A DNA stretch of 64,000 nucleotides from positions 1 to 64,000 of the IMG/VR virus record IMGVR_UViG_3300007538_000026; one strand, given 5' to 3'. Position 1 is the stretch's first letter, and every line of letters starts with the position of its first letter. Under the pieces are notes generated by a model. It was not told where the DNA came from, did not search any database, and saw nothing but the letters and a program-made list of their open reading frames with translations. Shown piece by piece: positions 10,334 to 29,951 of this stretch. This DNA is from a virus. The position numbers and the translations under genes are program-made.

Positions 10334-12775
10334 ATGGGTACCATCGCCTCCAGGCTGAATCTGCGGCTGTTCCCCGATGGGGTGGAGGTCCCTGTCATCG
10401 GAGCTCGGTGCACCTTCTCCGACGGCGCGCCGGCGACAGCTGAGGTCCAGATCGTGGCCACCAACGCCGTGCACGACATCCTGCCGCGCACGCTGGTCAC
10501 CCTGTTCTACTACGAGACCTACGACTACGAGAGGACCTCGGGCACCGTGGCGCTCACCAAGCTCGGGGTCGAAGACCCCCGGCGCTGGAAGTTGCTGTTC
10601 CTCGGGGAGGTGACAGGCCTGGCCATCCAGCAGCAGAACCAGCAGCGCGCCTGCGTGCTCTCCTGCGTGGATCCGTCTACCTACTGGGACTCCATCCGGC
10701 AGCACTACATCAACTTCCGCAACGCCGGCGTCGAGCTGTTCGAGAACGCCTTCATGGGCGTGCGGCTGGACCGCCTCAAGCACTTCGATGTCGTCACCAA
10801 GGATGCGCACTCCAACCTGTTCGTGTGGTTGTCGCAGTCCAAGGTGAAGACGGGCAAGACCGAGACCAAGCTCGCAGGCTACCGTCACACCATGTCGGGG
10901 AAGACCATCTCGGTGGACGAGTACAACTCGCTGGCGACGGCTGAACTGAGCTCCGATGAGCAGCACGTGCTGTCGCAGGGGGCGGTGAAGACCACCTCGG
11001 TCACCGAGGATGGCGAGAGCGCGAGTGACTACGCCCCGTACTATGCCGAGGTCGACGAGGAGTACTCCAACCTCTACGTCGGCATCCAGCGGATGCTGCG
11101 TGAGATGTTCTTCGCGTCCAACCTCTTCTACGCCAAGGCGTTCAACCGGCTGCGTCTCGGGGATATGCTCGTAGGGCTCCCCGAGGACAAGACCGCGGCG
11201 AAGCTGATGAAGCTCGACTACTTCGAGAAGTTCATCAAGGGCCAGGTCGGGGGTGCTGGAGGCTATGTCACGGCGCGGCAGCTCATCCAGCTCATGCTGG
11301 GGACGGTCTTCCACACCTACACGGCCGTGCCATGCCCGAAGTTCGACCCGGAAGGGACCTCGCGCGGCATGACCATGAGCGTGGAGCAGGACGCGCACCT
11401 GCTCAAGGAGATCCTCCCAAGGTACACCCGCCCGGGCGCGACGTTGAACTACCAGCTCATCAAGCCGGATGCCTGGTTCCTCGCTCCGCCTGCCTGCAAC
11501 GTCATCCTGCCCCACCAGATCAACAGCCTGGCCTACCAGCGCAACTTCTTGCAGGAGCCCACCAGGCTGTTCATGCGCACCAGCCTGCTGTTCACCGGGA
11601 CCAACAAGTGGCTCACGGAGCGTTTCTACGCTCCGGACTTCGCTGCCTTCGACGTGCAGATGTACGACAAGGGGGGCTTCAACGAGCGCATGGCCAGCAC
11701 GCTCCTCCCGCACGAGAAGTGGATCGGAATTGCTCCTATCGAGCACTGGCAGCACGACCTTCAGGCCTACGTCGCCAAGGGCCCGCGGCGGGAGTACCTC
11801 GCCCACCTGGCCGACTACCTCTTCTGGAAGCAGCGCTTCGCGCCGCGGACGGCCAACGTGGCGCTGCCCTTCACCCCCGACCTGGTGGTGGGGTACCCCG
11901 GGGTAGTTGTCACGGAGACCGGCCGGGTAGGCACGGCTGGGCGCCACATCATCGGGCACATGCAGACGCTCGTGCACAGCATCACCCAACAGGGAGGCTG
12001 GACCCACGTGACGATGCAGGGGTGCCGTAACCACGATGAAACCGCTGACTTCGACGCCGAGAAGCGCACCCTCGAGGAGCTCACCTCTCGGGGAGCTGAC
12101 GGGTTCCTCGATGACCGTTACGACGTGGGGCGCATCGGGCAGGAGGTCTACCAGCCCATCTTCGGGTGCGACAGCCTGGTGGACGCTGTCACTACGGACG
12201 ACCTCACCGAGGAGATCGAGCAGACGATCCTCACCGACCTGCAGTTCCTCCTGGACACCGAGGACTCGCCGCTGGCGGCGTCCGTCGTGGCGCTGCAGGT
12301 GCTCTACAGGTCTGCCGTACGCGCGAAGCTCGACATCAACGCGTTCACCAGGTCGCTGACGCACCGGCCCAAGGCCAACATGGTGGAGGTCATCGGGCTG
12401 CCTACCACGCAGGGCGCCACTAGTGAGATGGAGCAGATGATCTTGTCGCAGTCCGGCGAGGTCGAAGGGTTCCACTCCATCGCGGTCGATGTCGACGCCT
12501 CGGATCACAGCTACGACCAGTACACCACGACGCGCTACGAGAACGTGTCGGAGGTGAAGCACACTCCCGCGGTGATGGAGGAGCAGATCTTCCCGGACGG
12601 CGGCGTTATCTCGGTCGAGGAGGTCGAGGTCGAGAAGGCGAAGACCGAGAAGGTCACGTACACGCGGGAGATCAACGAGACGGCGACCTACGGCCTCAAG
12701 GACGATCTTGCGGAGCGGCAGGAGAGGATTCGGCTGTACCTTGATAGTCTGGTGATGCGAGGTATCCGCGGATGA
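10334..12775 (+). CDS. Putative baseplate hub protein (813 aa)
   Basis: A large protein whose N-terminus (RLNLRLFPDGVEVPVIGARC, then LFLGEVTGLAIQQQ) looks like the beta-barrel start of phage hub proteins such as gp27/gpD-like proteins. The middle is helical and aromatic. The C-terminal 100 residues are acidic and coiled-coil-like. ATG 10334 has GGGAG upstream. Its stop overlaps the SNF2 gene (ATGA), so the helicase is translated from the same late transcript. Hub assignment is inferred from order and the N-terminal fold. Confidence 0.5.
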   Translation: MGTIASRLNLRLFPDGVEVPVIGARCTFSDGAPATAEVQIVATNAVHDILPRTLVTLFYYETYDYERTSGTVALTKLGVEDPRRWKLLFLGEVTGLAIQQQNQQRACVLSCVDPSTYWDSIRQHYINFRNAGVELFENAFMGVRLDRLKHFDVVTKDAHSNLFVWLSQSKVKTGKTETKLAGYRHTMSGKTISVDEYNSLATAELSSDEQHVLSQGAVKTTSVTEDGESASDYAPYYAEVDEEYSNLYVGIQRMLREMFFASNLFYAKAFNRLRLGDMLVGLPEDKTAAKLMKLDYFEKFIKGQVGGAGGYVTARQLIQLMLGTVFHTYTAVPCPKFDPEGTSRGMTMSVEQDAHLLKEILPRYTRPGATLNYQLIKPDAWFLAPPACNVILPHQINSLAYQRNFLQEPTRLFMRTSLLFTGTNKWLTERFYAPDFAAFDVQMYDKGGFNERMASTLLPHEKWIGIAPIEHWQHDLQAYVAKGPRREYLAHLADYLFWKQRFAPRTANVALPFTPDLVVGYPGVVVTETGRVGTAGRHIIGHMQTLVHSITQQGGWTHVTMQGCRNHDETADFDAEKRTLEELTSRGADGFLDDRYDVGRIGQEVYQPIFGCDSLVDAVTTDDLTEEIEQTILTDLQFLLDTEDSPLAASVVALQVLYRSAVRAKLDINAFTRSLTHRPKANMVEVIGLPTTQGATSEMEQMILSQSGEVEGFHSIAVDVDASDHSYDQYTTTRYENVSEVKHTPAVMEEQIFPDGGVISVEEVEVEKAKTEKVTYTREINETATYGLKDDLAERQERIRLYLDSLVMRGIRG

Positions 12776-14547
12776 GTGTTCGGTGGTTCCAGAAGCTGGC
12801 GCAGTCGGCGCCCGTCACGCCGCGGGCCCCCGAGGTCCCGAAGGCCCCAGCTCGGCCGAAGACCCCGAAGCTCCCCAAGCCCCCGAGCGCTACCAAGGGG
12901 CCGAACGGTCACTGGCGCACGCTCCCGCCCGGGCACCAGGGGCACGACGCCCAGGGGAACGCCCAGGCAGGACGTACCTGGGTACGGCGTGGGGGCGGAC
13001 TCAAGCCCTCTGCCACCCCGATGAAGCACCAGGCCGACTTCACCAAGGCGGTCACCAAGCTCCCGACGAAGAAGCCCTCGGGCCTCATCGCGGCCCACGG
13101 GACGGGTACGGGCAAGACGTTCTCGGCCATCGCTGCGGTGGAGAAGCTGCGCGAGAAGGGCCAGGTGGAGCGCACCCTCGTCGTGGCCCCTGCAGGCCTC
13201 CGGTCGAACTTCTTGGCCAAGGGCGTGAACAAGTTCACCACCTCCAAGGGCGTCATCGCCAACCGCCCCGGGGACATCCCGAAGGATGCGCACTACGTGG
13301 TGGTGTCCTACGCTGCCTTCCGGCAGAACCCAGACGCCTACATCGACGCCTACCAGCCCGACACGCTCATCGTGGACGAGGCGCACCGACTCACCAACAT
13401 GGAGAGCGCGTCCTACAAGGCCATCCGGCACGCCCGTACGCGGATCCCCCGAGTGATCCCGCTCACCGCCTCCATCGTGCAGAACGACCCCTCTGACGTG
13501 GTACCCCTGCTGAACATCGTCGCCGGGCAGGACCACACCCGGAAGGAGTTCAAGCAGCGCTACGTGCGCCGGGTGCCCACCGGGCAGAAGGGGGTGTTCG
13601 GCGGGAAGGTCTACGCGAAGAAGATCGTGCGGCAGGAGGAGCTCAAGCGCACCATCGGTCCGCACATCCACTACATCGAGGACCTCGACGCGGACAAGAA
13701 GCCGGCCAAGGAAGTGGAGACCGTAGAGGTCCCTATGAATGCGGAGCAGCTCAAGCTCTACCGCATGTCGATGAAGGGCGTGGACCCCAAGCTCCAGGCG
13801 CGCATCGCCGCCGGCGAGGCGGTCTCCCAGCGGGAGGCCATGACGGTGTTCACCCGGCTGATGCGTGCTCGCCAGGTGTCGAACAGCATCCACACGGTGC
13901 AGCCGAGCATGACGCCAGGACAGGCGGCGGACGCCACTCCCAAGATCAAGCAGATCTTGGACGACGCGGCTGCGCACATCGACAGCACGCCGGACGCCCA
14001 GATCATCATGTACTCCAACATGGTCCACGGGGGCGTTGACGTGCTCAAGGCGGGGCTCGAGAAGCGGGGCATCCCCTTCGGCATCTTCGCTGGGAAGGGC
14101 GTCAAGGGCATCACCGAGGAGACACGGCAGCAGGCGGTCGACGACTACCTGGCCGGGAAGATCAAGGCGATCATCATCACAGGCGCGGGTGCGGAGGGCC
14201 TGTCTCTCGGCAACACGACGCTGGTGCAGCTGGTGGACGGGCACTACAACCCTGAGCGCATCAGCCAGGCCGAGGCCCGCGGGGTGCGCGCCGGTGGACA
14301 GGCCCACCGGCCGCAGAGCGAGCGTCGGGTAGCAGTGAAGCGCTACGTGTCTACGCTCCCTCGAGGCTTCTGGAAGACCATCACGATGCAGCCGCGTGAG
14401 AAGAGCGTGGGGCAGTGGGTCTACGCTACGGCCGAGCGCAAGCGCGCTGCCAACGAGCAGTTCCGTGCTGTCCTCTCAGCGCGGCACGAACACGAGCAGA
14501 AGAGTCGGGAGAGCACGCTCTACCGACTCTTCGGAGGAGGCCCATGA
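12772..14547 (+). CDS. SNF2-like SF2 helicase/translocase, candidate virion cargo
   Basis: 591 residues. Motif I GTGTGKT (110-116), motif II DEAH (202-205), motif III LTAS (231-234), motif V GAGAEGLSLGNT (471-482) and motif VI QAEARGVRAGG (499-509) identify an SNF2/SWI2-type DNA translocase with both RecA-like lobes intact. No nuclease domain is present. Residues 14-80 are proline- and basic-rich and probably disordered. The first 13 residues contain the tag W5-F-Q-K-L9-A-Q11-S-A13 shared with other nearby virion genes. Encoded among tail genes and not with the replication genes, it may be carried in the particle to act on incoming or host DNA, as known for P1 DarB. Confidence 0.85.
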   Translation: MSVRWFQKLAQSAPVTPRAPEVPKAPARPKTPKLPKPPSATKGPNGHWRTLPPGHQGHDAQGNAQAGRTWVRRGGGLKPSATPMKHQADFTKAVTKLPTKKPSGLIAAHGTGTGKTFSAIAAVEKLREKGQVERTLVVAPAGLRSNFLAKGVNKFTTSKGVIANRPGDIPKDAHYVVVSYAAFRQNPDAYIDAYQPDTLIVDEAHRLTNMESASYKAIRHARTRIPRVIPLTASIVQNDPSDVVPLLNIVAGQDHTRKEFKQRYVRRVPTGQKGVFGGKVYAKKIVRQEELKRTIGPHIHYIEDLDADKKPAKEVETVEVPMNAEQLKLYRMSMKGVDPKLQARIAAGEAVSQREAMTVFTRLMRARQVSNSIHTVQPSMTPGQAADATPKIKQILDDAAAHIDSTPDAQIIMYSNMVHGGVDVLKAGLEKRGIPFGIFAGKGVKGITEETRQQAVDDYLAGKIKAIIITGAGAEGLSLGNTTLVQLVDGHYNPERISQAEARGVRAGGQAHRPQSERRVAVKRYVSTLPRGFWKTITMQPREKSVGQWVYATAERKRAANEQFRAVLSARHEHEQKSRESTLYRLFGGGP

Positions 14548-14972
14548 GCGATGCCCTGGTGACCAGCTACTTCAACGAGCTGGAGAAGATCGCAGAGACC
14601 GGAGGGCACGCTGACGTGTTCGCTGCGCTGGACAAGCTGGCGAACGAAGCGGATGCCGAGACCGAACCCACGGACGACTACGCCCCGACGCGTTGCCCGA
14701 AGTGCAAGACCCCGTGCACGCGGGACGACGTGAAGTGCAAGAAGTGCGGGACCAAGCTGAGGTCCGATGACCAGCGTGAGGACGCTGCGCAGCTGCAGGC
14801 CGAGGCCGAGAGTCCCGGACAGCACGAAGCACCCCCCGGACACGAGAAGACCGCGAAGACGGGCGATGCCCCGGACAAGCAGAAGCGCAAGGGGCCGAAC
14901 CCCATCCTGAATCTCCGCAAGGGGAAGAAGTCCAAGCGCATCCGAGCCCGGCTGGCCTCCTGCGCGGAGTAG
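14544..14972 (+). CDS. Zinc-ribbon protein with N-terminal cargo-like tag
   Basis: 142 residues. ATG 14544 overlaps the helicase stop and follows a perfect GGAGGAGG. The tag Y9-F-N-E-L13-E-K15-I-A17 is at the N-terminus. Residues ~51-72 form a zinc ribbon (CPKCKTPC ... CKKCG). The rest is highly charged, with a basic C-terminus (LRKGKKSKRIRAR) suited to nucleic-acid binding. No enzyme motif. Cotranscribed with the SNF2 helicase; a possible partner of it by position only. Confidence 0.7.
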   Translation: MSDALVTSYFNELEKIAETGGHADVFAALDKLANEADAETEPTDDYAPTRCPKCKTPCTRDDVKCKKCGTKLRSDDQREDAAQLQAEAESPGQHEAPPGHEKTAKTGDAPDKQKRKGPNPILNLRKGKKSKRIRARLASCAE

Positions 14973-14981
14973 TGCTACGAT
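14973..14981 (+). promoter_or_regulatory. Extended -10 promoter for the 15064 virion gene
   Basis: TG-C-TACGAT (14973-14981) straddles the end of the zinc-ribbon gene. The predicted start site near 14988 would give a leader of about 76 nt with two hairpins and an AGAGGAG ribosome site before the ATG at 15064. No convincing -35 box is visible, as is common with extended -10 promoters. Confidence 0.5.
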
Positions 14982-15005
14982 CCTGTCACCGCGTGAGCGG
15001 TAGTG

Positions 15006-15040
15006 CAGGCTCACCAGCCTGTCCTCCGGAGGTCCGGAGG
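15006..15040 (+). promoter_or_regulatory. Structured 5' leader (two hairpins)
   Basis: CAGGCT-CACC-AGCCTG (15006-15021) is followed at once by CCTCCGG-AGGT-CCGGAGG (15023-15040). Both hairpins are perfect and lie in the untranslated leader upstream of the ribosome site of the 15064 gene. Such 5' stems often protect abundant phage mRNAs; a regulatory role is possible but unproven. Confidence 0.5.
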
Positions 15041-15063
15041 CTATCCACTCAGAGGAGTCCCCC

Positions 15064-15693
15064 ATGTCCCAGCTCGGCAAGAGCCCCGTCCAGAACCTTC
15101 TCTCCTGGAGCCCCAAGAAGAAGGGCTGGTACCCCAAGACCATCGTCTCCCTGATGCAGCGCATCGTGAACGACATCTGGAAGTGCAACGAGATCCTCGA
15201 GGGCTGCAGCGCCATCGCGGACGGCGCCTCCATCAGCGCCACCACGCTCAACGTCACCACCACGGGCGCCCTGCGCTGCAAGCTCAACGGCCGCCTGATG
15301 GCCGCCCTGGCCATCCTGGACGATGCCGATCTCCTGGCCGACGTCGGCACCCCCATCTGGTCCGACGGTTCGCCGGTGGAGGCCTTCGAGCTCGGTGCGG
15401 GGGAGGACGTCACCGTCACCCTCATCGTCACCAACTCCGACGACGCGGGCGACGTGGACGAGGACGACGCGGGCACCCCGCTCCTGGTCCCGGTGCTCTC
15501 CGGCACGGCCGCGGCCTACACCGGCGGGCTGGACCAGCTCTCCTCCTACGAGATCCAGAGCGCCCTCGAGGCCAGCGATGAGCATGCCGGGGTCACCGGC
15601 TGGGCTCACGTGCTCCAGGCCGTGTTCACCGAGGACACCGGCGTCACCGGCGCCTACGTCCTGAACCGCAACAACGTCGTGTCGGAGGCCTAG
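15064..15693 (+). CDS. Putative structural protein, possibly abundant
   Basis: 209 residues with a helical N-terminus (SLMQRIVNDIWKCNEILEG) followed by an acidic beta-rich domain (DVTVTLIVTNSDDAGDVDED). No recognised family and no tag. It has its own extended -10 promoter, a structured leader and the strong ribosome site AGAGGAG, the signals expected of an abundant virion component. Decoration, head-tail joining or tail roles are all possible. Confidence 0.6.
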   Translation: MSQLGKSPVQNLLSWSPKKKGWYPKTIVSLMQRIVNDIWKCNEILEGCSAIADGASISATTLNVTTTGALRCKLNGRLMAALAILDDADLLADVGTPIWSDGSPVEAFELGAGEDVTVTLIVTNSDDAGDVDEDDAGTPLLVPVLSGTAAAYTGGLDQLSSYEIQSALEASDEHAGVTGWAHVLQAVFTEDTGVTGAYVLNRNNVVSEA

Positions 15694-15694
15694 C

Positions 15695-15714
15695 CCTGCC
15701 TCTGCGGAGGTAGG
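15695..15714 (+). promoter_or_regulatory. Hairpin burying the ribosome site of the metallopeptidase gene
   Basis: CCTGCCTC (15695-15702) pairs with GAGGTAGG (15707-15714) across a TGCG loop with one G-T wobble. The paired strand contains the GGAGG Shine-Dalgarno site for the TTG start at 15717. Folding would reduce initiation of the downstream gene relative to the abundant gene upstream. Confidence 0.45.
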
Positions 15715-15716
15715 TC

Positions 15717-17552
15717 TTGGACTGCGTCCTTCCGAGCTTCGCGGCTGAGCTGACCAAGATCGCCGCCTCCGAGAGCAAGAGGCGGCGCTCCGGGTACGCA
15801 GCAGCTGTGGGAGCAGCCGCCCCCTTCGCCGCGGTGCAGGCCGCGACCGACTACCCTCGCGGGTGGGTCGACAAGGCGGTCGAGAACCGCGTGCTGGGCA
15901 AGCAGAACGTGGCCAAGCTCGGCCCGAAGGTCGCCCCGTGGTCCGTGGGGCTCGGCCGCGCAGCAGGCCGGCTCGGACCCGGCTTGCTGACGACGCCGAT
16001 CTTTCTCAGCGGCATCAAGGACCTGAGCAACGCGCAGTCGGATGCCGACAGGAAGAAGGGCTACGCCAAGATCCTGGGATCCGGCGTAGCCTTCTCGGGC
16101 GGCAAGGGGGCCATCGAAGGTGGCGTCCAGCGGCTCGGCGGGCTCTCGTCGAAGCAGGCCCTGCAGAAGGTCAAGAACCTGGCCAGCTCGCGGATGATCA
16201 CCGGGAGCCTGGCGGGCGCCCTCACGGCGCGGTCTGTGGCCAACAGCGTGCGCGACGACCGCAAGGGCAAGAAGAACAAGGGCCTGCTCATCCCCGCGGT
16301 GACTGGCGCGGCAGTGGGCGCGGGCAAGGGCGGCTTCGACAAGGCCTACGGGATCGTCAACCCCAAGTTCCGCAGGCAGCTCCCCAAGGCCGAGCGCCTG
16401 GTCGGGACCAAGAGAGCGATTCCGGCGGCCATGGCAGGGCGCGCGGCCGCGGGTGCGCTGTCCGCTGTGGTGCTCTCCCGCCTGGCCCGTGCGTACATGA
16501 AGAAGGGCAAGGAGAAGCAGGCCGCGGTGGAGGCACCCCCTGGACCGGGGCACACCTACGAGCAGGTACGGGCCTGGGCCGCGGACAAGTCGCCGGAAGA
16601 GGTGGCGCAGCAGTTCGCCCACACGCACAAGCGCGGGGACCCCGAGGCAACCCCCACTCGACGAGCGGTGTACTACGCCCTGCACGACGACCTCGCCCGG
16701 CGGGGGGCCACGGAGCTCCCGCCGCCCAAGAAGCGGGGGGAGGCTACCGGGGTGGCGCGCACCCCCAACGTGGCTCACGCAGCTGCGCTCTCTACCATCC
16801 TGGTGGCGCCGGAGCTGGTGTGGCACGGCATGACGCACACCATGGCCCCCGGGGAGAAGAGCCTGGTCATGTCCGAGGCCCTGGACCGCATGATCGCTGA
16901 GCGAGGGATCGAGCGGATGAACTCCGGACACCCCTTCTGGGGCACGTCCATGCGGCCCGGGGCCTACATGCGCCTGGAGGAAGAGGCGACGGACAAGGCG
17001 ACTCGGGAGCTCCTCGAGGTCGCTCGAGGGGCGAACAACTCCGAGGCGCGCAAGCTGCTGGCTGCCTACGGCACGGGGAAGCGCAAGTTCATCCTCGCCC
17101 CGGAGAAGGCGTTCCCAGACGTGCTCGCGCACGAGCTCGGTCACGCCACGGCGGGCTCCCTCCGGCAGAAGACGCTCCAGCACCCCATGGCGTCCGTCGT
17201 GGCGCGCTATGCTCGCCTGCCCGCCATCGCCCTCCCCATCATCGCCATGGCAGGGATCGGTGACGGCTCCTTCGCGACCAAGAAGGACTTCGAGAGCCGC
17301 GCCAAGTTCGTGCAGGGCGTCGGCATCGCCACGGCGCTCCTGAGTGGACCGAACCTGGCAGAGGAGGCGGTGGCCAGCGGGAAGGCGCTCAAGTACTTGA
17401 GCCGTGCCGGGGCGTCCCCTCGGCAGGCGACCCTGAAGGCGCTCAAGCGCCTCGTGCCAGCCTTCGGGACCTACGCGGCTCCCGTGGTCTTCCCCTTCGC
17501 CGTGGCACACTCCCTTCGTCGCAGAGCCGAGAAGGCTGGGAGAGACGGATGA
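15717..17552 (+). CDS. Putative zinc metallopeptidase with hydrophobic/glycine-rich segments, candidate virion cargo
   Basis: 611 residues from a TTG start with GGAGG upstream. Residues 472-476 are HELGH, the gluzincin/metzincin-like zinc motif, in the context FPDVLAHELGHATAGS. E549/E550 downstream are candidates for a third ligand. Hydrophobic or glycine-rich stretches occur at about 25-45, 190-206, 236-256 and 501-545. The N-terminal tag is F8-A-A-E-L12-T-K14-I-A16. Inference: a membrane-associated protease in the particle that could act on cell-envelope proteins during entry. Known substrates: none. The TTG start and the hairpin over its ribosome site suggest low expression. Confidence 0.65.
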   Translation: MDCVLPSFAAELTKIAASESKRRRSGYAAAVGAAAPFAAVQAATDYPRGWVDKAVENRVLGKQNVAKLGPKVAPWSVGLGRAAGRLGPGLLTTPIFLSGIKDLSNAQSDADRKKGYAKILGSGVAFSGGKGAIEGGVQRLGGLSSKQALQKVKNLASSRMITGSLAGALTARSVANSVRDDRKGKKNKGLLIPAVTGAAVGAGKGGFDKAYGIVNPKFRRQLPKAERLVGTKRAIPAAMAGRAAAGALSAVVLSRLARAYMKKGKEKQAAVEAPPGPGHTYEQVRAWAADKSPEEVAQQFAHTHKRGDPEATPTRRAVYYALHDDLARRGATELPPPKKRGEATGVARTPNVAHAAALSTILVAPELVWHGMTHTMAPGEKSLVMSEALDRMIAERGIERMNSGHPFWGTSMRPGAYMRLEEEATDKATRELLEVARGANNSEARKLLAAYGTGKRKFILAPEKAFPDVLAHELGHATAGSLRQKTLQHPMASVVARYARLPAIALPIIAMAGIGDGSFATKKDFESRAKFVQGVGIATALLSGPNLAEEAVASGKALKYLSRAGASPRQATLKALKRLVPAFGTYAAPVVFPFAVAHSLRRRAEKAGRDG

Positions 17553-18403
17553 CCATCGCCAAGGATGTCGCAGCGGGCGTAGACCCGTTTGGTGTGTGGA
17601 CTACGCGCTTGGCTGCTGACGCGGAGCGTGCACGCACTTCGCGGAGGAAGCACCGCACCAAGACGCTGGCCGCAGCGGTCGGCGGCAGTATCGGCGGCGG
17701 CGTGGTGGTCCCCTCGGTCGTGTCCGGCGTCATCGGGGCGGCCAAGGGCGCCGGCGGCGGGGCGAGCTTCAAGCAGCGTCTCCGCGGAGCTGCCAAGGGG
17801 GCGGTTCGCGGCGCCCAGGCACCGCTCAAGAACCTGGTGCAGGGCGGCAAGGCTCTGCGGACGGCACGCCGGGCGGAGAAGAAGGGCCTGGCAGGCTTGT
17901 CGGAGCGCGAGATCGCGCGTACTCGGAAGATGATCGGCAACCTGCGGCTGAGCGACGTCTACGCGCATCGCAAGCACATGAAGCCCACCAAGGCGCTCAT
18001 GCGCGAGCTGCGCAGTGCCAAGAAGGGGGACTCGCCTGCCCGGAAGCACGTGGTCGAGCAGCTTGCAGGCAAGTACAAGGGCGTGCCCAAGGAGAAGCGC
18101 GACGAGATGGGCAAGCTCCTTCTCGGAGGCAGCGGCATCGTCAGCGCCGCCCGGAAGAAGGGTGAGCGGGCCTTCGCCAGTGGCGTGGCCGCCATGGGCA
18201 TGGCGGCCGGCGTCGGAGGCGGGGGCGCGGCCCTGCAGTACCAGAAGGGGCGAGAGATCGAGCAGGAGACGCGCCGCCGTCTGCGCGAGGCGCGCAAGCG
18301 CATGGGTGACGGCGGCAAGGAGAAGCAGAGCACTGCGCTCCCCGCGCTGACCGAGGCTGCGGTCAGGAGTTTTTGGCAGGAGCTCGCCCAGATCGCAGCA
18401 TAG
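17549..18403 (+). CDS. Basic glycine-zipper protein with C-terminal tag
   Basis: 284 residues; ATG 17549 overlaps the upstream stop (ATGA). A glycine-rich hydrophobic segment at about 48-72 (GGSIGGGVVVPSVVSGVIGA) is followed by very basic helical regions and a second glycine-rich stretch near 213-230. The last eleven residues contain F275-W-Q-E-L279-A-Q281-I-A283. This is the same nine-position tag seen at the N-terminus of its neighbours, here at the extreme C-terminus. Suggests a membrane-inserting or DNA-associated virion protein. Confidence 0.65.
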   Translation: MTIAKDVAAGVDPFGVWTTRLAADAERARTSRRKHRTKTLAAAVGGSIGGGVVVPSVVSGVIGAAKGAGGGASFKQRLRGAAKGAVRGAQAPLKNLVQGGKALRTARRAEKKGLAGLSEREIARTRKMIGNLRLSDVYAHRKHMKPTKALMRELRSAKKGDSPARKHVVEQLAGKYKGVPKEKRDEMGKLLLGGSGIVSAARKKGERAFASGVAAMGMAAGVGGGGAALQYQKGREIEQETRRRLREARKRMGDGGKEKQSTALPALTEAAVRSFWQELAQIAA

Positions 18404-18457: not shown

Positions 18458-19075
18458 ATGGACAGCATCTACGGACACTTCACGTCGGCCGCGCTCGAGC
18501 TGGTGGCCCAAGCAGGCAACGCGGGTGCGAGGGTTCTCGGGGCCTTCGACGGCGAGCTCGAGAAGATCGCGGCGCGCATCCCCCAGGCCCGTCCGGAGTT
18601 CGCTCGGATGCGTATCCGGGCGTACCGCCAGCAGGTGCTCGAGCGGGCGGCCAGGCAGCCGAAGCCCGACATGCGCTCTCCCGGTGTCCGTCTCGCAGAG
18701 CGGGTGGCGCAGGGAGGCCCCGTGGCCACGCCGCCTGTGCGGTCTGCCCCGGTGCGCCCGCGTTCCGCTCCGAAGCCTGAGCCGGCCAAGCCGGCGCCGG
18801 CCAAGCCGGCGCCCGAGCCAGCCCAGGCCGCCCCCGTGGGAGCGGCTGACTCCGCCAAGCCCAAGAAGCCCAAGAAGGACAAGGGCAAGGGACTCCGCCC
18901 TTGGCAGGCCGTCGCTGGCGGCACCGCGGTCGCGGGCAGCGCGCTCGCGGGCGGCTACGCACTGTCGCAGCACAAGGAGCGCCGCGAAGACGAAGATCGC
19001 CGACGGCGCATCCTCAGCTACCTCCGCTCCCGCCCCCAGCAGCAGTCCCTGTCGCGTCAGCTTCGCGGAGCCTGA
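18458..19075 (+). CDS. Tagged virion protein with Pro/Ala repeat and glycine-rich membrane segment
   Basis: 205 residues. The tag F30-D-G-E-L34-E-K36-I-A38 follows a short helical leader. Residues ~90-128 are Pro/Ala/Lys-rich with PAKPAP repeats, a flexible linker. Residues ~150-172 form a glycine/alanine hydrophobic segment (AVAGGTAVAGSALAGGYALS) followed by a strongly charged, arginine-rich end, a layout typical of a single membrane anchor with a cytoplasmic basic tail. No enzyme motif. Adjacent to two other tagged proteins. Confidence 0.65.
   Translation: MDSIYGHFTSAALELVAQAGNAGARVLGAFDGELEKIAARIPQARPEFARMRIRAYRQQVLERAARQPKPDMRSPGVRLAERVAQGGPVATPPVRSAPVRPRSAPKPEPAKPAPAKPAPEPAQAAPVGAADSAKPKKPKKDKGKGLRPWQAVAGGTAVAGSALAGGYALSQHKERREDEDRRRRILSYLRSRPQQQSLSRQLRGA
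18781..18810 (+). repeat. Short tandem repeat encoding PAKPA units
   Basis: The 15-mer GCCGGCCAAGCCGGC occurs twice in tandem (18781-18795 and 18796-18810, the second starting GCCGGCC), giving a PAKPAPAKPA linker in the protein above. Such repeats can change copy number by slippage. Confidence 0.55.
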
Positions 19076-19076: not shown

Positions 19077-19619
19077 ATGTACGACTTCGCGCGCATCATC
19101 GACGTCTTCGAGGATGAGCTGGAGAAGATCGCCAGGTTCCGGCACGCCTCCAACGAGGGGCTGCACGTGGTGCAGCAGGCGCTGCTCGGCAACAAGGCTG
19201 CGCTCAAGCAGCAGACTCGCGGTGAGGTCAAGGCGCTCGGCCTCGGGCGCTTCGTCCCGTTCACCTCGTCTCATCGCGCGGCCCACCAGGCCAAGCAGAG
19301 CGCGAAGTTCCAACGCCGCGCCTACGACAAGGAGCTGGCCGAGGTGCAGCAGGAGGTCAAGCGCCGTGCCCAGGAGGGCAAGTGGGCGGGGACGACGCGC
19401 CCCCGGTTCTTCGGCACGACGCCCACCGCGGGTGAGGTCGAGAAGGCCACGCGGAAGGCCATCAAGAACGAGCGGAAGGCCAAGCGGACGAAGACCCTGC
19501 GCATGGTGGGCGGCGGTGTGGCCGGTACCGGCGCGGTCGTCGCGGGCGGCGTGGCCGGGAAGAAGTACATCGATCATCGGCGGCGCACGAGGGCCTACGG
19601 CGGCTATGCGGGGTACTGA
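19077..19619 (+). CDS. Tagged basic glycine-zipper virion protein (180 aa)
   Basis: ATG 19077 starts one base after the previous stop TGA (19073-19075). The tag F11-E-D-E-L15-E-K17-I-A19 is at the N-terminus. The body is basic and helical, and residues ~143-163 are a glycine/valine membrane-type segment (VGGGVAGTGAVVAGGVAG) ending in an arginine-rich tail. This layout parallels the previous gene, suggesting related function despite little overall similarity. The stop overlaps the sigma factor ATG (TGATG). Confidence 0.65.
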   Translation: MYDFARIIDVFEDELEKIARFRHASNEGLHVVQQALLGNKAALKQQTRGEVKALGLGRFVPFTSSHRAAHQAKQSAKFQRRAYDKELAEVQQEVKRRAQEGKWAGTTRPRFFGTTPTAGEVEKATRKAIKNERKAKRTKTLRMVGGGVAGTGAVVAGGVAGKKYIDHRRRTRAYGGYAGY

Positions 19620-20344
19620 TGGTCCGGAGGCGGCGCACCAAGAAGGCGGATGATGAGCTCCAGCTCTGGCAGAGCTGGAAGCAGGCTCCGTCCGACGCTA
19701 CGCTGACTCCGGTTCTGGACTCGCTGCAGCCAGTCATCCAGCGCAAGGCGCGTGAGTTCTCCACGGCACCCGTACCTCCCGGGGCCGTGCTCGGGGCTGC
19801 CAACGAGCTCGCGCTGCGTGCCATCAACACCTACGACCCGAACCGAGGCGCCTCTCTCCGCACGCACGTGGACTGGAACCTGCGCAAGGTTCGCTCCTTC
19901 GTCGTGAAGCACCAGAACCTGGGCAAGATCCCTGACCAGCGAGCCTACGGCATCGGGCGGTTCAAGGCTGTCGAGGACGAGCTCACGGAGAAGCTGGGGT
20001 ACCCGCCGGACGCGCAGACCATGGCAGAGGCACTGGGGCCGAAGTGGTCGGTGGCGGAGGTGCGCCGGATGCGGTCAGAGGACCGCCCGGACCTCATCGC
20101 GTCCCTCAACCTCGAGCCTGACCTGCTCCCCGAGATGGAGTCCAGCGCTGAGCGTGAGGTGCTTCGCTACATCTGGCAGGACCTCACGCCGGACGAGCGC
20201 ACCGTGTTCGAGTACTCCATCGGCGCGAACGGCAAGCCGAAGATGCGTGCAGGTCAGATCGCCGCCATGATGGGGATCTCCCAGCCGAAGGTCAGCCGCA
20301 TCCGTCGCAAGATCGACCGCAAGCTGCAGGAGCGTGGCGTATGA
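19619..20344 (+). CDS. RNA polymerase sigma factor, sigma-70 family
   Basis: 241 residues. Residues ~30-100 match sigma region 2 (ELALRAINTYDPNRGASLRT, then HVDWNLRKVRSFV). A region 3-like helical part follows (KLGYPPDAQTMAEAL). Region 4 ends the protein with LTPDERTVFEYSI and the helix-turn-helix AGQIAAMMGISQPKVSRIRR. No region 1.1 is present. It would redirect host RNA polymerase to phage promoters. It lies in the tagged virion cluster, not with early genes, so it may serve late transcription or be packaged; it carries no tag itself. Confidence 0.8.
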   Translation: MVRRRRTKKADDELQLWQSWKQAPSDATLTPVLDSLQPVIQRKAREFSTAPVPPGAVLGAANELALRAINTYDPNRGASLRTHVDWNLRKVRSFVVKHQNLGKIPDQRAYGIGRFKAVEDELTEKLGYPPDAQTMAEALGPKWSVAEVRRMRSEDRPDLIASLNLEPDLLPEMESSAEREVLRYIWQDLTPDERTVFEYSIGANGKPKMRAGQIAAMMGISQPKVSRIRRKIDRKLQERGV

Positions 20345-21292: not shown

Positions 21293-21304
21293 AACGAGGA
21301 CCTC

Positions 21305-24380: not shown

Positions 24381-24418
24381 TCGCGTTACGGGACCTTCGC
24401 GGGAGCGCTCCCCCCGGG

Positions 24419-24447
24419 CTGACTGGGAGCATCGAAGGCGGTATAGT
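24419..24447 (+). promoter_or_regulatory. Promoter driving a leaderless gene
   Basis: CTGACT (24419-24424), 17-nt spacer, TATAGT (24442-24447). The ATG at 24454 begins exactly 6 nt after the hexamer, with no Shine-Dalgarno site, so the predicted transcript starts at the ATG. It follows the terminator at 24351, restarting transcription for the surface protein operon. Confidence 0.65.
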
Positions 24448-24453
24448 TGCTCC

Positions 24454-24861: not shown

Positions 24862-25796
24862 GCACGCGCCACGCCAAGGTCGAAGAAGCCCTCGTCGAGG
24901 TCTTCACGGTGTTCGACCTTGACGGGTACACCCCCGTCTCTGGCCTCACGGCGGACGACTTCGAGCTGACGGTCTACCAGAACGGGGCCGTCGCCGCCGG
25001 GGTTGAGTGCGCACTGACCGAGGTGGGGTCCTCGGGGGACTACGTGCTCTCGGTGGCAGCCGGGCTGCCTGCGTCAGGGGTCTGGGTCATCACGGCCTAC
25101 TGCACGTTCAACGAGGCGCGCTACCGTTCGGTCATCGAAGTGCGCGAGCACGACGTGGACGACATCTTCGACATCATGGTGTCCGGCGGCTCCGGTACTG
25201 AGAGCGTGACTGTGCGCATCGTGGACACGGTCCACGACGACACTCCGCTGGCCGACGTCCTGGTCAACGTCTTCAACGAGGACGAGACGGTGTTCGTCAC
25301 CTTCGGGCGCACGGATGTTGACGGGGAGCGTACCTTCTTCCTTGACGAAGGGACCTACGCCTTGCGGTGCTTCTCGCCCGGGGTGAGCTTCGACTCGGAG
25401 ATGCAGCTTGTCGTGGAGACGGGCGGCGGTGTCGAAGTCATCGAAGCCGAGGCTACCGTGGTGACCCCTCCGTCGAACCCGCAGCTCTGCCGCTTCTACG
25501 CTGACCTCATGCAGCAGAACGGGCAGCCGCTGGCAGACTTCCGCATCAGGGTCACCAACCTGCACAAGCCTACCGACTCCACAGCACTGGCGGTGGTGGA
25601 CAACGAGGCCCTCTACACGACCGATGCCGCGGGACACGTCGAGTTCGATGTGGTCCGGGGAACGCGGATCCGGGTATCCTTCGTGAAGTCCCGCTTGACG
25701 CGTGAGATCATCGTGCCCTCTCAGTCCGTGGCCAACCTGCTGACTGTGTTCGGCGCCGCCTCGGACGCCTTCGCTGTGGTGAGGAGAACCGGATGA
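24858..25796 (+). CDS. Multi-domain Ig-like virion surface protein
   Basis: 312 residues of beta-sandwich domains: N-terminal ~100 residues, a CarboxypepD_reg/Ig-like domain at ~115-195 (VNVFNEDETVFVTFGRTDVD ... GTYALRCFSPG) and a third at ~210-310. The last domain is clearly paralogous to the N-terminal half of the 29029 gene (shared LCR, TxDxxGxVxFD, REIxVP positions). No signal peptide. Likely adhesin or head/tail decoration. Confidence 0.65.
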   Translation: MSTRHAKVEEALVEVFTVFDLDGYTPVSGLTADDFELTVYQNGAVAAGVECALTEVGSSGDYVLSVAAGLPASGVWVITAYCTFNEARYRSVIEVREHDVDDIFDIMVSGGSGTESVTVRIVDTVHDDTPLADVLVNVFNEDETVFVTFGRTDVDGERTFFLDEGTYALRCFSPGVSFDSEMQLVVETGGGVEVIEAEATVVTPPSNPQLCRFYADLMQQNGQPLADFRIRVTNLHKPTDSTALAVVDNEALYTTDAAGHVEFDVVRGTRIRVSFVKSRLTREIIVPSQSVANLLTVFGAASDAFAVVRRTG

Positions 25797-27388
25797 CCAG
25801 CCCGAACCCTACCCTGGTGCGCCAGTCCAAGGCGTCGGACCTGCCCGTGTTGGTAGGGCCCAACCTGCTCATCAACCCTGTGTTCGAGCACATCATCACC
25901 AAGCGCGGGGCGTCGGGCACCATGGCTCTCCCCACGGCGTTCTCGGACACCTTCCAGTATGCTCCTGGGTGGTACGACTGGGGCGGGGAGAACTGTGGGA
26001 GCCTCGGTCAGCCGAATCCGGCCTCCCAGCAGTACAACCCGTTCCGTGCGGGGGCCAACTGCGACAGCGGCATCGAGATCGAGCAGACGGCCCAGTGGCA
26101 GAAGGGCGTCGTCCAGCTCGTGCCGCGGGGAGCCACCCTCAGGGGGCGGCGCATCCGCGTCTCCGGGTGCTACCGCATCCCGACGGGAGGCAACCCGGAC
26201 GACCTGACGGGCATCTCCATCTGGCTCAAGGGCGCGGTTGTCGACGAAGCCGGGGCCGGCGCCTGGGTCAGCAACACCGACTACAGCATGCAGGAGGACT
26301 GCATGCACGTCATCCGGGTCACGACCGAGCTCGACGCCGCGGATGCCGCGAACACCTACGACTCGGGGGAGGAGTTGTTCTTCCGCGCGTTCGACTCCTG
26401 GACCTTCGACGGCGTGGACGACTCGATCACGTTCGGCGGTGCGGGGGTGCGCTCGCAGCAGGCGATTCGGGTGTTCCTCCTGAACGGTACCTTCAACGAC
26501 GACGCCGCCTTGGGTGACGTCGAGGTCTACACCGAGACCCAGGTCGGGGACGGGGCCACCCACTACTTCGAGGCATTCTTCGACGTGCCCGACGAGGCAG
26601 GGCTCTTCCCCGAGGACGACGTCTGGATCATCGCCATGCCCGTCTCGCCGGACAGCCAGGGGGACATGACCGGGGACGCCACCATCGTGGTGTGGGGCTT
26701 GTCCCTCGAGGTCGTGGTGCAGGAGGCCGAGGGGCAGGTGCTCACCGGGCTCCTCAGTCCCGCGCCCTTCGGCTCCGCGATGGGCTACGGCTCGGGAGGC
26801 CTCCCCCTGGAGCAGCTGTACCGCTACCCCATCTACGTCCCTACGATCTACCCGCTGGACGTCCACGGTGCGCCGAAGATCGCGAGTGACTACTCCAACG
26901 TCTACAAGCACATCGACGTCGGGGATCGCGAGAACCTGCTCTCCTTCTACGGCAGTGGGTCGGTGGCGCTGGTCGCCAAGCAGCACACGCCGCCTCCTGG
27001 GGCGCACATCATCTCGGCCGCGTGGCGCTACGCGCTGGACACCAACAGCGGCTCGGCCACGGCCTCCGAGCTGTACCAGGTCCTCACCTTCGACCCGGCT
27101 GACACTGCCACCAAGGCGTCGCAGCAGGTCGTGTGCGACTGGGGCGCGCTCGGTACGACGGGCTGGAAGGAGTGCGACGCTGTGCGCAACCGCGTCGGCA
27201 TGTACTGGCCCGCGGACGCCGCTGATGCTCTCGAGGACTTCGGAGCGCAGGCTGCGGCCAGCCTGTGGTTCGAGCAGACGCTCACGGGCAACGGCTCGGG
27301 ACACACCGCGGTGCAGGACGGCTTCATCTACGCTGTCGAGGATCCCCGCCTCGGGCGTGCCTGCTGGAAGAACCCGAGCGGGAGCTGA
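25793..27388 (+). CDS. Putative tail fibre/adhesin with jelly-roll carbohydrate-binding-like domain (531 aa)
   Basis: The start GPNLLINPVFEHI is typical of fibre and carbohydrate-binding jelly-roll modules that begin N-L-L-x-N-x-x-F. A Trp/Tyr/Gly-rich beta region follows to ~residue 290, then a second beta domain to the end (SYGSGSVALVAKQH-type strands). ATG 25793 overlaps the upstream stop. No enzyme motif. Likely receptor-binding. Confidence 0.6.
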   Translation: MTSPNPTLVRQSKASDLPVLVGPNLLINPVFEHIITKRGASGTMALPTAFSDTFQYAPGWYDWGGENCGSLGQPNPASQQYNPFRAGANCDSGIEIEQTAQWQKGVVQLVPRGATLRGRRIRVSGCYRIPTGGNPDDLTGISIWLKGAVVDEAGAGAWVSNTDYSMQEDCMHVIRVTTELDAADAANTYDSGEELFFRAFDSWTFDGVDDSITFGGAGVRSQQAIRVFLLNGTFNDDAALGDVEVYTETQVGDGATHYFEAFFDVPDEAGLFPEDDVWIIAMPVSPDSQGDMTGDATIVVWGLSLEVVVQEAEGQVLTGLLSPAPFGSAMGYGSGGLPLEQLYRYPIYVPTIYPLDVHGAPKIASDYSNVYKHIDVGDRENLLSFYGSGSVALVAKQHTPPPGAHIISAAWRYALDTNSGSATASELYQVLTFDPADTATKASQQVVCDWGALGTTGWKECDAVRNRVGMYWPADAADALEDFGAQAAASLWFEQTLTGNGSGHTAVQDGFIYAVEDPRLGRACWKNPSGS

Positions 27389-27391
27389 GTC

Positions 27392-28228
27392 ATGCCTGAT
27401 GTCTACCAAGGAGTCGTAGGTCGACAGCTGCGGGTACCCCTGCGCGATTCGTTGGGGACCACGGGCCTGGCGCTGGAGGACTTCACCATCTACGCCGCCT
27501 CGGAGGCTTCCTGGGTGGCGGATGCGGAAGCTACGCTGGCACTCATCCTCATCGAGGTCGACAGTGAGAACTTCCCCGGGTACTACGAGCTGGCGCTCAC
27601 GCCTGTGGGCGAGGGCTTGCTCTATCTGTCCGTCGCCGGGACCGATACGCATCACCTGGCGGTGCAGGCCGCCCACGAGGGTGTGGACCTGGTCGGTACG
27701 GTGCAAGCTGGTGCGGAAGGGACGTACACCGTCACCGTCGAGGACGACGGCGGGAGTCCGGTTTCGGGAGCGACGGTCAAGATCTACTCGAGCGGCGGGA
27801 CCCGCCTCGTAGCTCGAGGTACGACCAACGCAGCTGGGCAGGTAGCCTTCGGGCTGCCCACTGGCTCGTACTACGTGCGGGTCTACGTGGATGGCTACGA
27901 CTGCACCGAGGTGAACCCCACGGAGATCCTGGTAGTGGCTGACCCGACGGTAGACCCCGTGGTGCTCAGCGCGGTGCCGGAATCCCCGCTCGCCGGCGGC
28001 AGCGTCACCCTGCTCGGCACGTGCCTGGGGGACACCCTGGCCGACGTGGATGTGCTGTTCGACGGGGAGGTCGTGGCAGCCTCGGCGCTGGCGGAGGGCG
28101 GCACGGCCGTGGTGGCCTCCGTGCCCGAGGCTGCTGGAGGGCCCGTGTCCCTGCAGGTACGCAAGCCGGATCCCAGCAACCCGGGGGAGTACCTGGTGTC
28201 CAACATCGTGTGGGTGGAGATCGTATGA
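27392..28228 (+). CDS. Ig-like / IPT-TIG domain surface protein (278 aa)
   Basis: Three beta domains. An N-terminal one runs to ~100. A CarboxypepD_reg-like domain spans ~105-185 (TVEDDGGSPVSGATVKIYSS, then GQVAFGLPTGSYYVRVY). A C-terminal IPT/TIG-like domain spans ~190-278 (LAGGSVTLLGTCLGDTLADV). No signal peptide. Cotranscribed with other Ig-like genes and overlapping the next gene (ATGA). Confidence 0.65.
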   Translation: MPDVYQGVVGRQLRVPLRDSLGTTGLALEDFTIYAASEASWVADAEATLALILIEVDSENFPGYYELALTPVGEGLLYLSVAGTDTHHLAVQAAHEGVDLVGTVQAGAEGTYTVTVEDDGGSPVSGATVKIYSSGGTRLVARGTTNAAGQVAFGLPTGSYYVRVYVDGYDCTEVNPTEILVVADPTVDPVVLSAVPESPLAGGSVTLLGTCLGDTLADVDVLFDGEVVAASALAEGGTAVVASVPEAAGGPVSLQVRKPDPSNPGEYLVSNIVWVEIV

Positions 28229-29025
28229 GGCCCTACCTACAGCACCTCGAGAAGACTGCGGCGCACCCGGTCGTGGCGCGCGCCGTGGAGGCGCTGGTCG
28301 GGGCCATCCTCGGCGGCGGTGTCGGCGCAGGCGCGGGGGCCATCACCTACAAGCCCGATGAGCCGAAGACCCTGCGCCTTCCCGACGGCTCGCTCTACAC
28401 GCGCAAGTTCACGCAGGACGAGCGCAGCCAGCTGCTCGACCGGGCGCTCAAGGGGGCCCTCATCGGGGGTCTGGTGGGCGGCGGTGCTACGGGTGGCCTG
28501 GCAGCCCTCATGCGACGCTCCACCGCCCGGAAGGAGAAGGCCGACGCGCCGTACCTGGTCAACAAGTACCTCACGTCGCTGCGTTCGCTGGAGCGCGGTG
28601 CCAAGAGGGACGTGGCTTCGGGGCAGCGGCATCTCGGGGATCTGCGGGCAGCTCAGCGCGGGCCCGCGGCAGAGCGTCCGGGAGCCATGCGGCTGTTGGA
28701 GGTCCAGGAGCGCATCACGGAGGCCCACCGCCGCCAGCAAGCCATCGACGCGCTCATGCAAGCCGAGAAGGCGCAGTTCGAGGGGTTCCTCGGAGCGGCC
28801 AAGAAGGCGCGCGCGCGTTCCCTCTTCGGCGGCCCGCGCTTCATGATCGCCAAGCAGGACGGGGAGAAGCTGTTCCTGCCGGCGCCGACGCGGCACGAGG
28901 GCCAGATCTTGCAGCACCTCGGCATCGACAACCCGGCCCTGTCCTTCCGTCCTCGAGGACGGCGGCATGATGCGGTCATCCCGGAGGCGTACTGGCAGCA
29001 GCGCCTGCAGGGCGCAGCGAGGTAG
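28225..29025 (+). CDS. Tagged glycine-zipper virion protein (266 aa)
   Basis: ATG 28225 overlaps the previous stop. The tag Y4-L-Q-H-L8-E-K10-T-A12 is at the N-terminus. Two glycine-rich membrane-type segments follow, ~24-40 (LVGAILGGGVGAGAGAI) and ~70-95 (ALIGGLVGGGATGGLAAL). Then a long charged helical region and a C-terminal part with GGPRFMIAKQDGEKLFLP. Paired glycine zippers are typical of membrane-disrupting or channel proteins. Second location of the tag family, outside the 12-20 kb cluster. Confidence 0.65.
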   Translation: MRPYLQHLEKTAAHPVVARAVEALVGAILGGGVGAGAGAITYKPDEPKTLRLPDGSLYTRKFTQDERSQLLDRALKGALIGGLVGGGATGGLAALMRRSTARKEKADAPYLVNKYLTSLRSLERGAKRDVASGQRHLGDLRAAQRGPAAERPGAMRLLEVQERITEAHRRQQAIDALMQAEKAQFEGFLGAAKKARARSLFGGPRFMIAKQDGEKLFLPAPTRHEGQILQHLGIDNPALSFRPRGRRHDAVIPEAYWQQRLQGAAR

Positions 29026-29028
29026 CCC

Positions 29029-29703
29029 ATGGCCAACTCGATCACCCTCACGGTCACCCGGCTCGGGACTACGACGGCCGACAACCCGGCGCTGTGCCGC
29101 GTGTCCGGCTACCTCCGGGACATTCACGGCAACGCCCTGCCCGGGGAAGCGCTGACCGTGCGCCACGTGTACAACCCCATCGTCGTGGGGACGGACACGC
29201 TCATCCTGAACGAGGAGCAGGAGGTCGTTTCGGACGGCAACGGGCTGGTGCAGTTCGACCTGTACCGCGAAGCCACCGTGCGCATCGAGCTCCCCAACAG
29301 GGTGCTCGACCTGGTGCGCGAGGTCACGGTGCCCGACGCTTCCAGCGTTGACCTGGTGGCCCTGGTCTTCCCCTACATCGTCAGCGTGGCTTTCGAGGAT
29401 ACGAGCCCCGTGCTGGCTTCGGTGGGAGCCTCGCTCTCGCTGGCGGCCGTGGCCACGTTCTCGGACGGAACCGAGGTCGATGTGTCGGTCCAGGCTACCT
29501 ACGAGGTCAGTGACTCCGACGTGCTGGCAGACCTCGGGGCGGGTGCGTTCAGTGCGCTGGCGGCCGGCTCTGCGACGGTGAGCATCACTGCCGTCGATAC
29601 CGACGAGCTCACGCAGTACCAGGACCTCGACGGCGAAGTACTCGGGAGGCTCGACCTGCCGGACATCACCTACCCTGACGCGATCACCGTCGAGGTGTCC
29701 TGA
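29029..29703 (+). CDS. Ig-like surface protein with BIG2-like domain (224 aa)
   Basis: N-terminal ~105 residues are paralogous to the C-terminal domain of the 24858 gene. Residues ~115-224 resemble a bacterial Ig-like BIG2 domain (VGASLSLAAVATFSDGTEVD, then ATVSITAVDTD). No signal peptide or tag. Stop overlaps the next ATG (TGATG). Confidence 0.7.
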   Translation: MANSITLTVTRLGTTTADNPALCRVSGYLRDIHGNALPGEALTVRHVYNPIVVGTDTLILNEEQEVVSDGNGLVQFDLYREATVRIELPNRVLDLVREVTVPDASSVDLVALVFPYIVSVAFEDTSPVLASVGASLSLAAVATFSDGTEVDVSVQATYEVSDSDVLADLGAGAFSALAAGSATVSITAVDTDELTQYQDLDGEVLGRLDLPDITYPDAITVEVS

Positions 29704-29951
29704 TGCTCCCCAGCTTCGCAGCAGCGCTCGAGAAGTACGCCAAGGCGGAGCGTCTCTCGGTCTCCCCGAAGGACCGCGTTGCGTGGAAGGCGCGCCTGGC
29801 GCAGGCGAAGGTCCCGGAGGGCGACACCCCTTCGGTGGGGCGGGACAAGCAGGGGTTCTACGTCTACACGCACAGGGCGCGCTCGTCCTCCTACCCCACC
29901 CCCGGCGCGATCCCCCTGGCCAAGATCCGGTTCGTCGGCTCTACGGGGTGA
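29703..29951 (+). CDS. Small tagged protein (82 aa)
   Basis: The tag F5-A-A-A-L9-E-K11-Y-A13 in MLPSFAAALEKYA closely matches the start of the metallopeptidase gene (LPSFAAELTKIA). The remaining ~65 residues are a small basic domain with YVYTHRARSSSYP and no recognised family. The shortest member of the tagged set; almost a fifth of it is tag. Followed by a leaderless promoter. Confidence 0.65.
   Translation: MLPSFAAALEKYAKAERLSVSPKDRVAWKARLAQAKVPEGDTPSVGRDKQGFYVYTHRARSSSYPTPGAIPLAKIRFVGSTG

Follow-up and report, generated by a model that had tools for sequence, protein, structure and literature searches.

The window analysed here, the first 64,000 bases of the 74,380-base IMG/VR phage record IMGVR_UViG_3300007538_000026, encodes a nine-residue peptide tag near the ends of otherwise unrelated proteins. 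We read this tag, with a probability of about 0.77, as the capsid-targeting and processing propeptide of a large myovirus lineage, acting like the capsid-targeting sequence (CTS) of phage T4. An earlier note on this DNA had found the tag in eight proteins as the pattern aromatic-x-x-x-L-x-[K/Q]-x-A and had proposed a shared docking or packaging peptide. The capsid-targeting reading is supported, among other things, by the enrichment of the right half of the tag, LxKxA, in untagged head-core proteins of the lineage and not in its tail or replication sets, an enrichment also found in cultured relatives. The tag, its lineage and carriers, the co-occurrence of LxKxA with the head core, the protease fold and the near-invariant sites of protease and capsid protein can all be seen in sequences or models.

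All eight 9-mers listed in the earlier note were in place. In the whole record, its pattern matched 9 of the 64 called proteins, far above 2,000 composition-preserving shuffles of these proteins (mean 1.1, maximum 6). Eight of the nine matches began within the first 35 residues (shuffle mean 0.13, maximum 3) and the remaining one was C-terminal. The tagged protein that the earlier note did not list, at 66097-66468, adjoins the portal gene and exceeds every null; as it lies outside the window, it is an independent success of the earlier pattern.

The phage was extended by a 110,689-base contig, G001, which shares 67,980 bases with the record at 99.9% identity. When viral contigs were scanned for DNA that encodes FxxELEKIA, at least 118 stretches were obtained; among the matches listed, 50 of 118 stretches carried a terminal tag at a profile score of at least 18 in script gene calls, as did 10 of 60 stretches in bacterial and archaeal genomes (gene calls, same score). 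About 20 of the 118 listed stretches, counted by eye, were rejected as background: they match the interior of an unrelated protein that occurs repeatedly and that we take to be a T4-like portal. Of 42 queried records, preselected for at least one match to ELxKIA, all contained this pattern, at 128 places compared with 5 for a reversed control pattern. Eighteen of them, picked by length and number of matches, were taken whole and their genes called by script. These 18 contigs, found through the 9-mer, share a core genome, with one family in 17 of the 18, four in 16 and six in 15. A 13-column tag profile was trained on 109 sites from 17 contigs with G001 held out, and a score of 13 was used as the threshold.

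The profile consensus was [AS]-F-[FLS]-D-E-L-[EQ]-K-I-[ASG]. In the held-out G001, 14 proteins matched (12 N-terminally, one C-terminally and one internally) against 0.0 in shuffles, which makes 13 terminal tags in one phage. Per-protein p-values were taken from 2,960 shuffled nulls with a profile trained without this phage; the proteins starting at 14544, 15717, 17549, 18458, 19077 and 66097 scored above all of them. Among the eight carriers of the earlier note, five were thus strong, 29703 was moderate, 28225 weak (p 0.024) and the SNF2-type helicase unsupported: its WFQKLAQSA was rejected as a full tag (p 0.09), leaving the half motif FQKLA only. Relatives of this helicase in other contigs carried a full tag in two of four cases (G009 and G042). 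One replication-module protein, at 56347, matched a stricter pattern with WEAEIYKIA; its family has 12 members, no other N-terminus of which showed the match, and it was rejected as looking like chance.

Across the 18 contigs, 149 genes were tagged at a score of at least 13, 120 of them terminally. Blind alignment of 131 tagged proteins (from 137 genes at a score of at least 17, omitting six that crossed tile borders) gave a clear consensus in the tag only. Outside the tag, none of the 461 within-genome pairs of tagged proteins in the 18 contigs was similar at E 1e-3, in keeping with the earlier note's view of the host proteins as otherwise unrelated. ELEKIA was written in 23 distinct DNA spellings in 30 cases, which indicates selection on the peptide and led us to reject a DNA-level element. 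Tagged genes were mostly accessory: 100 of the 149 were singletons without a homologue in the other contigs, and 6 belonged to families of at least eight genomes. Domains among the 131 proteins included SNF2 helicase, DNA ligase (3), inorganic pyrophosphatase, C39 peptidase, zinc ribbon, DnaJ, glycine zipper and DUF5661 (3). In a second ascertainment, 80 loci were found through the prohead protease described below, and 54 of them had a terminal tag within ∼10 kb on either side of it (83 tags, against 0 in shuffles).

The location of tagged genes was tested among non-core genes of the 14 contigs with replication core genes, four contigs without such genes being omitted. The tagged share by nearest core genes was 56/297 for head, 34/752 for tail, 3/82 for packaging and 8/302 for replication genes, and 6/503 for genes far from any of these. 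The virion-near versus replication-near difference (Fisher p 0.00035) is a modest contrast and no proof of head location. Tagged genes also shared the strand of nearby virion core genes in 92 of 93 cases, against 671 of 1038 for untagged genes. Six of the 8 replication-near tagged genes formed a single cluster in G024, and only one of 11 replication core families contained a match, internal, with a score of 14, in one member (G009_59208). The earlier note had confined the tag to the rightward virion module; this is true of the window but not of the phage, where G001 has a minus-strand tag at 98905-100002, just past the tail genes. Clusters of small tagged genes were seen in G038 (14 genes; L232-L233, 18388-27588) and G024 (six genes; L203, 30122-32648), whose members have no detectable similarity outside the tag and resemble a cassette of internal proteins.

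We then turned to the half motif in untagged proteins. Within the first 70 residues, L-x-K-x-A was present in 14 of 14 members of an untagged coiled-coil family encoded beside the capsid gene (2.8 expected), in 8 of 8 members of the protease family (0.9) and, among other untagged head core families, in 10/12 (1.6), 10/13 (2.8), 9/16 (1.3), 9/12 (1.2) and 7/12 members (1.2), with 5/16 for the capsid protein (1.9). Replication families had 0 to 3 such members each (0.6 to 2.5 expected), most tail families 0 to 2, and terminase and connector none; the tail-side family 22629 was also above expectation (6/11 against 0.6). A core-family sigma factor (G001_13219) had LxKxA near its N-terminus in 6 of 10 genomes (1.1 expected), which suggests packaging of the sigma factor as well in part of the lineage; the window copy at 19619-20344 is without the motif.

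In 106 untagged head-core proteins, K-x-A was the top residue pair (806 against 341 expected, z 29.6), and [LIMVF]xKx[AS] stood at 3.95 times expectation, compared with 0.60 for tail, 1.00 for replication and 0.88 for packaging, RNA polymerase and portal proteins. The surroundings of K-x-A took the form [LMFI]-[EVT]-K-[TVLI]-A followed by [SA], with Ser after the Ala enriched 3.4 times. In the head core of this lineage the z score was 38 for LxKxA, 5.8 for [LI]xE and 0.9 (no enrichment) for [AS]xE. In T4, used as a control, [LI]xE was recovered in the head-core proteins gp67, gp68, gp21 and gp22 and the N-termini of gp23 and gp24 (37 against 15.7, z 6.4), while the LxKxA-type motif was not enriched there (3 against 3.0; plain K-x-A 14 against 8.8, z 2.0); in T4 tail, terminase and UvsW proteins neither [LI]xE nor the LxKxA-type motif was enriched.

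For the cultured relatives, 50 kb each were read of Arash (180,819 bases), D69 (186,708) and phage G (497,513). The half motif was found 39 times in head proteins of Arash (7.8 expected) and 12 times in its other proteins (14.7), and 35 (7.5) and 13 times (12.5), respectively, in D69. In a gene-by-gene test without preselection, with a pass at p 0.02, 4 of 49 Arash genes passed, all within 40214-45171 of the stretch, and 6 of 71 D69 genes, five of them within 33121-37835, in both cases around the protease and genes called scaffold-like by position and composition only. Three of 72 phage G genes passed, including the protease gp19, and 4 of 119 G001 genes, all in the virion module.

The protease family, G001_81143, had relatives in 16 of the 18 contigs (partial matches included), in Arash, D69 and phage G, and 423 times in one IMG/VR scan; its gene lies near the capsid gene. 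An AlphaFold model of the protease (pLDDT 82) matched T4 gp21 with Z 9.6 and an rmsd of 2.8 over 131 residues, followed by herpesvirus assemblins from Z 8.2 down to 4.6 and a first unrelated row at 4.5, in a type of comparison where a best Z of 7-8 is common. Foldseek also placed gp21 first among solved structures, though at E 0.11, and among predicted viral structures the model matched gp19 of phage G together with numerous proteins that bear the name prohead protease. By these model comparisons, the predicted fold is of the gp21/assemblin type. Pfam recognized neither the protease nor the capsid protein, and a protease profile found nothing useful among the sequences of solved structures.

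K-x-A was invariant just before and just after the protease domain in 12 aligned sequences, the first copy lying in a disordered leader of the model. In a wider set of 48 proteases the second K-x-A was still at least 90% conserved and the first lay beyond the ends of many fragments. Such flanking sites are what self-processing would be expected to look like. H119 and S175 were invariant in all 48 sequences and, from a reading of the motifs, form the putative catalytic pair. The protease domain spans 668 to 1420 residues in G026, G030, G009 and G027 (L169, L161, L178 and L239) against ∼300 otherwise, which implies insertions; one in the G026 protease starts with Cys inside the conserved domain and is intein-like.

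In 52 major capsid proteins from the protease-found loci, the N-terminal 26 residues were variable except for F12 (52/52), L16 (48/52), G21 (49/52), K24 (52/52) and A26 (51/52, with one Gly). The four residues of F...L and K-x-A in the tag thus recur here, at wider spacing. The capsid model has an HK97 fold, and a search of solved structures with the capsid protein found that of phage G (E 0.00026).

The tag can be divided into two overlapping parts. In the left part, [AS]-F-x-D-E-L, Phe and Leu stand four residues apart, a helical spacing, and this F...L half, which recurs in the capsid propeptide, probably docks the cargo on the prohead core or scaffold; docking would take place before the shell closes. 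In the right part, L-x-K-I-A, every second residue is fixed, as in an extended protease substrate (P5, P3 and P1); the phage's own gp21/assemblin-type prohead protease would cut after the Ala, with a preference for Ser or Ala at the following position, and free the cargo inside the head. The cargo, namely helicases, ligases, peptidases, and zinc and Gly-rich proteins, would travel inside the head until it is ejected together with the DNA. We consider it rather more likely than not that, throughout this lineage, one portable peptide code loads a changing arsenal of proteins into the heads, with docking and cleavage residues common to the cargo and the capsid propeptide, that the cut falls between K-x-A and Ser rather than after Glu, just as assemblins cut after Ala, and that the injected proteome can be read from sequence.

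Several observations weigh against the capsid-targeting reading. Our support comes from sequences and structure models, from which we infer cleavage, binding and packaging. In 29 of the 149 tagged genes the tag lies inside the called protein, some of these cases probably being due to wrong start calls. Homologues do not always retain the tag: where a family includes a terminally tagged protein, 36 of 62 members have it. Of the 54 protease loci with a tag, 17 had Leu-initial forms only; among the full 80, four came from training contigs and some were near-duplicates. The stretches of Arash and D69 had the half motif, but no terminal tag was found in them (best scores 9.8 and, internally, 12.4), and that of phage G had a single C-terminal match, FLDALEKLK of gp72, which scores 16.3, above the threshold, but ends in Lys and is probably due to chance. 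The capsid K24-A26 falls inside a confidently predicted helix (19-40), so that cutting would need unwinding, and the whole capsid protein is little enriched in the half motif (ratio 1.39). There are also the 34 tagged genes nearest to tail core genes, the weak internal match of a replication core family member, and the lack of half-motif enrichment in the portal, terminase and RNA polymerase set. Finally, the set of 106 head-core proteins was picked partly by motif, and the G001 protease is not among the genes that passed the unselected test.

The first alternative is the earlier note's own view, a permanent cargo-loading peptide of the encapsulin kind, bound to a head protein and left uncut. 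It would account for the terminal position on unrelated proteins, the helical spacing of F...L and the predicted helix around the capsid K-x-A, but we consider it unlikely: scaffold-like and protease proteins contain the right half by itself, in several copies each, which hardly fits a cargo peptide, K-x-A is invariant on both sides of the protease domain, and both the alternating spacing and the preferred Ser after the Ala are protease-like. Encapsulin cargo peptides are terminal and recruit unrelated cargo into an HK97-fold shell without being removed by a protease, unlike the tag here, which ends in a probable cleavage site. The earlier note was well supported in seeing a docking or packaging peptide shared by unrelated virion-side proteins but missed LxKxA as a probable protease site, and its encapsulin comparison is less close than one with the removable T4 propeptide, LxKxA being found also in protease, capsid and scaffold-like proteins.

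The converse, that the 9-mer is just an extended protease site of head proteins recruited by other means, has a still smaller chance of being right. It agrees with the many head proteins that have LxKxA and not the other half. The FxDE half, however, recurs on otherwise unlike accessory proteins and is absent from most core head families, suggesting a second function, and the T4 CTS is likewise split into targeting and processing residues in passages of PMC9026906. A localization or interaction signal unrelated to heads, directed to a membrane, a host protein or import into a phage nucleus, is very improbable. GxxxGxxxG was commoner in tagged (45/135) than in other proteins (118/1968), but this excess is mostly Gly-rich composition, as shuffled tagged proteins already reach 0.21, and the many tags nearest to tail genes are offset by the near absence of tags from replication core families and by the single cluster behind most replication-near tags, as well as by a half motif common to capsid, protease and scaffold-like proteins. 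Two of the eight cases in the window, being weak or unsupported, might point to chance or to a common ancestor of the tagged proteins, but this explanation is refuted by the near-absence of tags in shuffles and by the dissimilarity of tagged pairs outside the tag.

A literature search with the tag strings tried returned no paper with these strings; as far as these strings go, the earlier note's statement that no described family matches is right for the sequence, but it is not right for the logic, which is that of the T4 CTS. Passages of PMC9026906 report that ten residues suffice for entry into the T4 head, the first part targeting and the last residues directing the cut, that the internal proteins differ between T4 relatives and that C-terminal processing is known (Alt). 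Like the T4 CTS as described there, the tag is a short terminal peptide on accessory proteins with divergent bodies, with a presumed targeting part followed by a presumed processing part, and as in T4 a protease is encoded near the capsid gene, here one with a gp21-like model. Unlike it, the tag has a different sequence with a consensus ending in KI[ASG] and an inferred site of K-x-A, occurs also on large enzymes and not on small proteins only, and reaches the 13 terminal copies of G001. It does not end in the [LI]xE of the T4 CTS but in the head-core-enriched LxKxA, on bodies that are unrelated, and would mark proteins that are present in the head and cleaved there. The peptide is thus T4-CTS-like in its presumed action, and not a member of that family by sequence or cleavage motif.

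Other prohead proteases differ in their sites. Those of T4, phiKZ, 201phi2-1 and SPN3US cut after Glu according to passages of PMC5694885, and SPN3US prefers Ser after the cut in passages of PMC10052503, as the K-x-A surroundings suggest for the present lineage. Head and ejection proteins of SPN3US and phiKZ lose N-terminal propeptides to the prohead protease, and the authors suggest in parts of these two papers that the propeptides may act like the T4 CTS; as described there, the SPN3US cut follows A-x-E and the propeptides mostly exceed 100 residues, unlike in this lineage, where [AS]xE is not enriched. The fold of herpesvirus assemblin is similar by model comparison. Assemblins generally cut between Ala and Ser, and we know of no terminal cargo tag of this kind in herpesviruses. 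The assemblin of pseudorabies virus ends in Ala in vivo according to part of PMC4498786.

Table 1. Tag carriers in the window and the positions of their tags
Feature	Position	Strand	Remarks
SNF2-type helicase	12772-14547	+	Pfam SNF2-rel_dom 6.6e-18; tag score -2.8, p 0.09
N-terminal half motif FQKLA of the SNF2-type helicase	12787-12801	+	
Probable zinc ribbon protein, N-terminal tag	14544-14972	+	tag score 20.3
Tag YFNELEKIA, residues 9-17 of the 14544 protein	14568-14594	+	
Possible zinc metallopeptidase, Gly-rich segments, N-terminal tag, TTG start	15717-17552	+	tag score 22.3
Tag FAAELTKIA, residues 8-16 of the 15717 protein	15738-15764	+	
Gly-rich protein with C-terminal tag	17549-18403	+	tag score 18.1; no Pfam match
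Tag FWQELAQIA, residues 275-283 of the 17549 protein, one residue from the C-terminus	18371-18397	+	
Small protein, Gly-rich segment, N-terminal tag	18458-19075	+	tag score 20.9; no Pfam match
Tag FDGELEKIA, residues 30-38 of the 18458 protein	18545-18571	+	
Small protein, Gly-rich C-terminal segment, N-terminal tag	19077-19619	+	tag score 19.1
Tag FEDELEKIA, residues 11-19 of the 19077 protein	19107-19133	+	
Small protein, Gly-rich segment, weak N-terminal tag	28225-29025	+	score 1.0, p 0.024; half motif LEKTA
Weak tag YLQHLEKTA, residues 4-12 of the 28225 protein	28234-28260	+	
82-aa protein, moderate N-terminal tag	29703-29951	+	tag score 10.3, p 0.0014
Tag FAAALEKYA, residues 5-13 of the 29703 protein	29715-29741	+	

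Among the carriers in Table 1, the 14544 protein matched Zn_ribbon_3 at E 1.7e-05 and 24.5 bits, under the Pfam cut-off of 27, and the Pfam peptidase matches of the 15717 protein were all sub-threshold. The phage encodes two DNA helicases, one at 62014-63372 (-) on the replication strand and the tabulated SNF2-type helicase on the virion strand. Near the portal gene, a single 2036-residue protein (record 68680-74380, G001 62280-68390) matched several RNA polymerase beta-subunit families and is apparently a fused multisubunit-type RNA polymerase. Outside this phage, a DNA-ligase-like family had the tag at or towards the C-terminus in its G004, G017 and G025 homologues and an LxKLA-type motif near the N-terminus in those of G026 and G030. 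Two Hyphomonas genomes and one alphaproteobacterial metagenome-assembled genome (L244, L258 and L287) encode a 230-aa protein whose N-terminus, MSEHIVSAFTDELEKIAADL, is identical in all three and may be due to chance or a phage remnant.

If the capsid-targeting reading is true, a nine-residue pattern marks head-packaged and probably injected proteins in many uncultured phages, most of them accessory and without a function by name, and the cargo of a large uncultured phage lineage would become readable from sequence. It would also mean a new specificity for a gp21-like prohead protease, testable in the cultured relatives Arash, D69 and perhaps phage G, and would suggest a second system, a portable one, by which phage heads could be loaded with foreign proteins.

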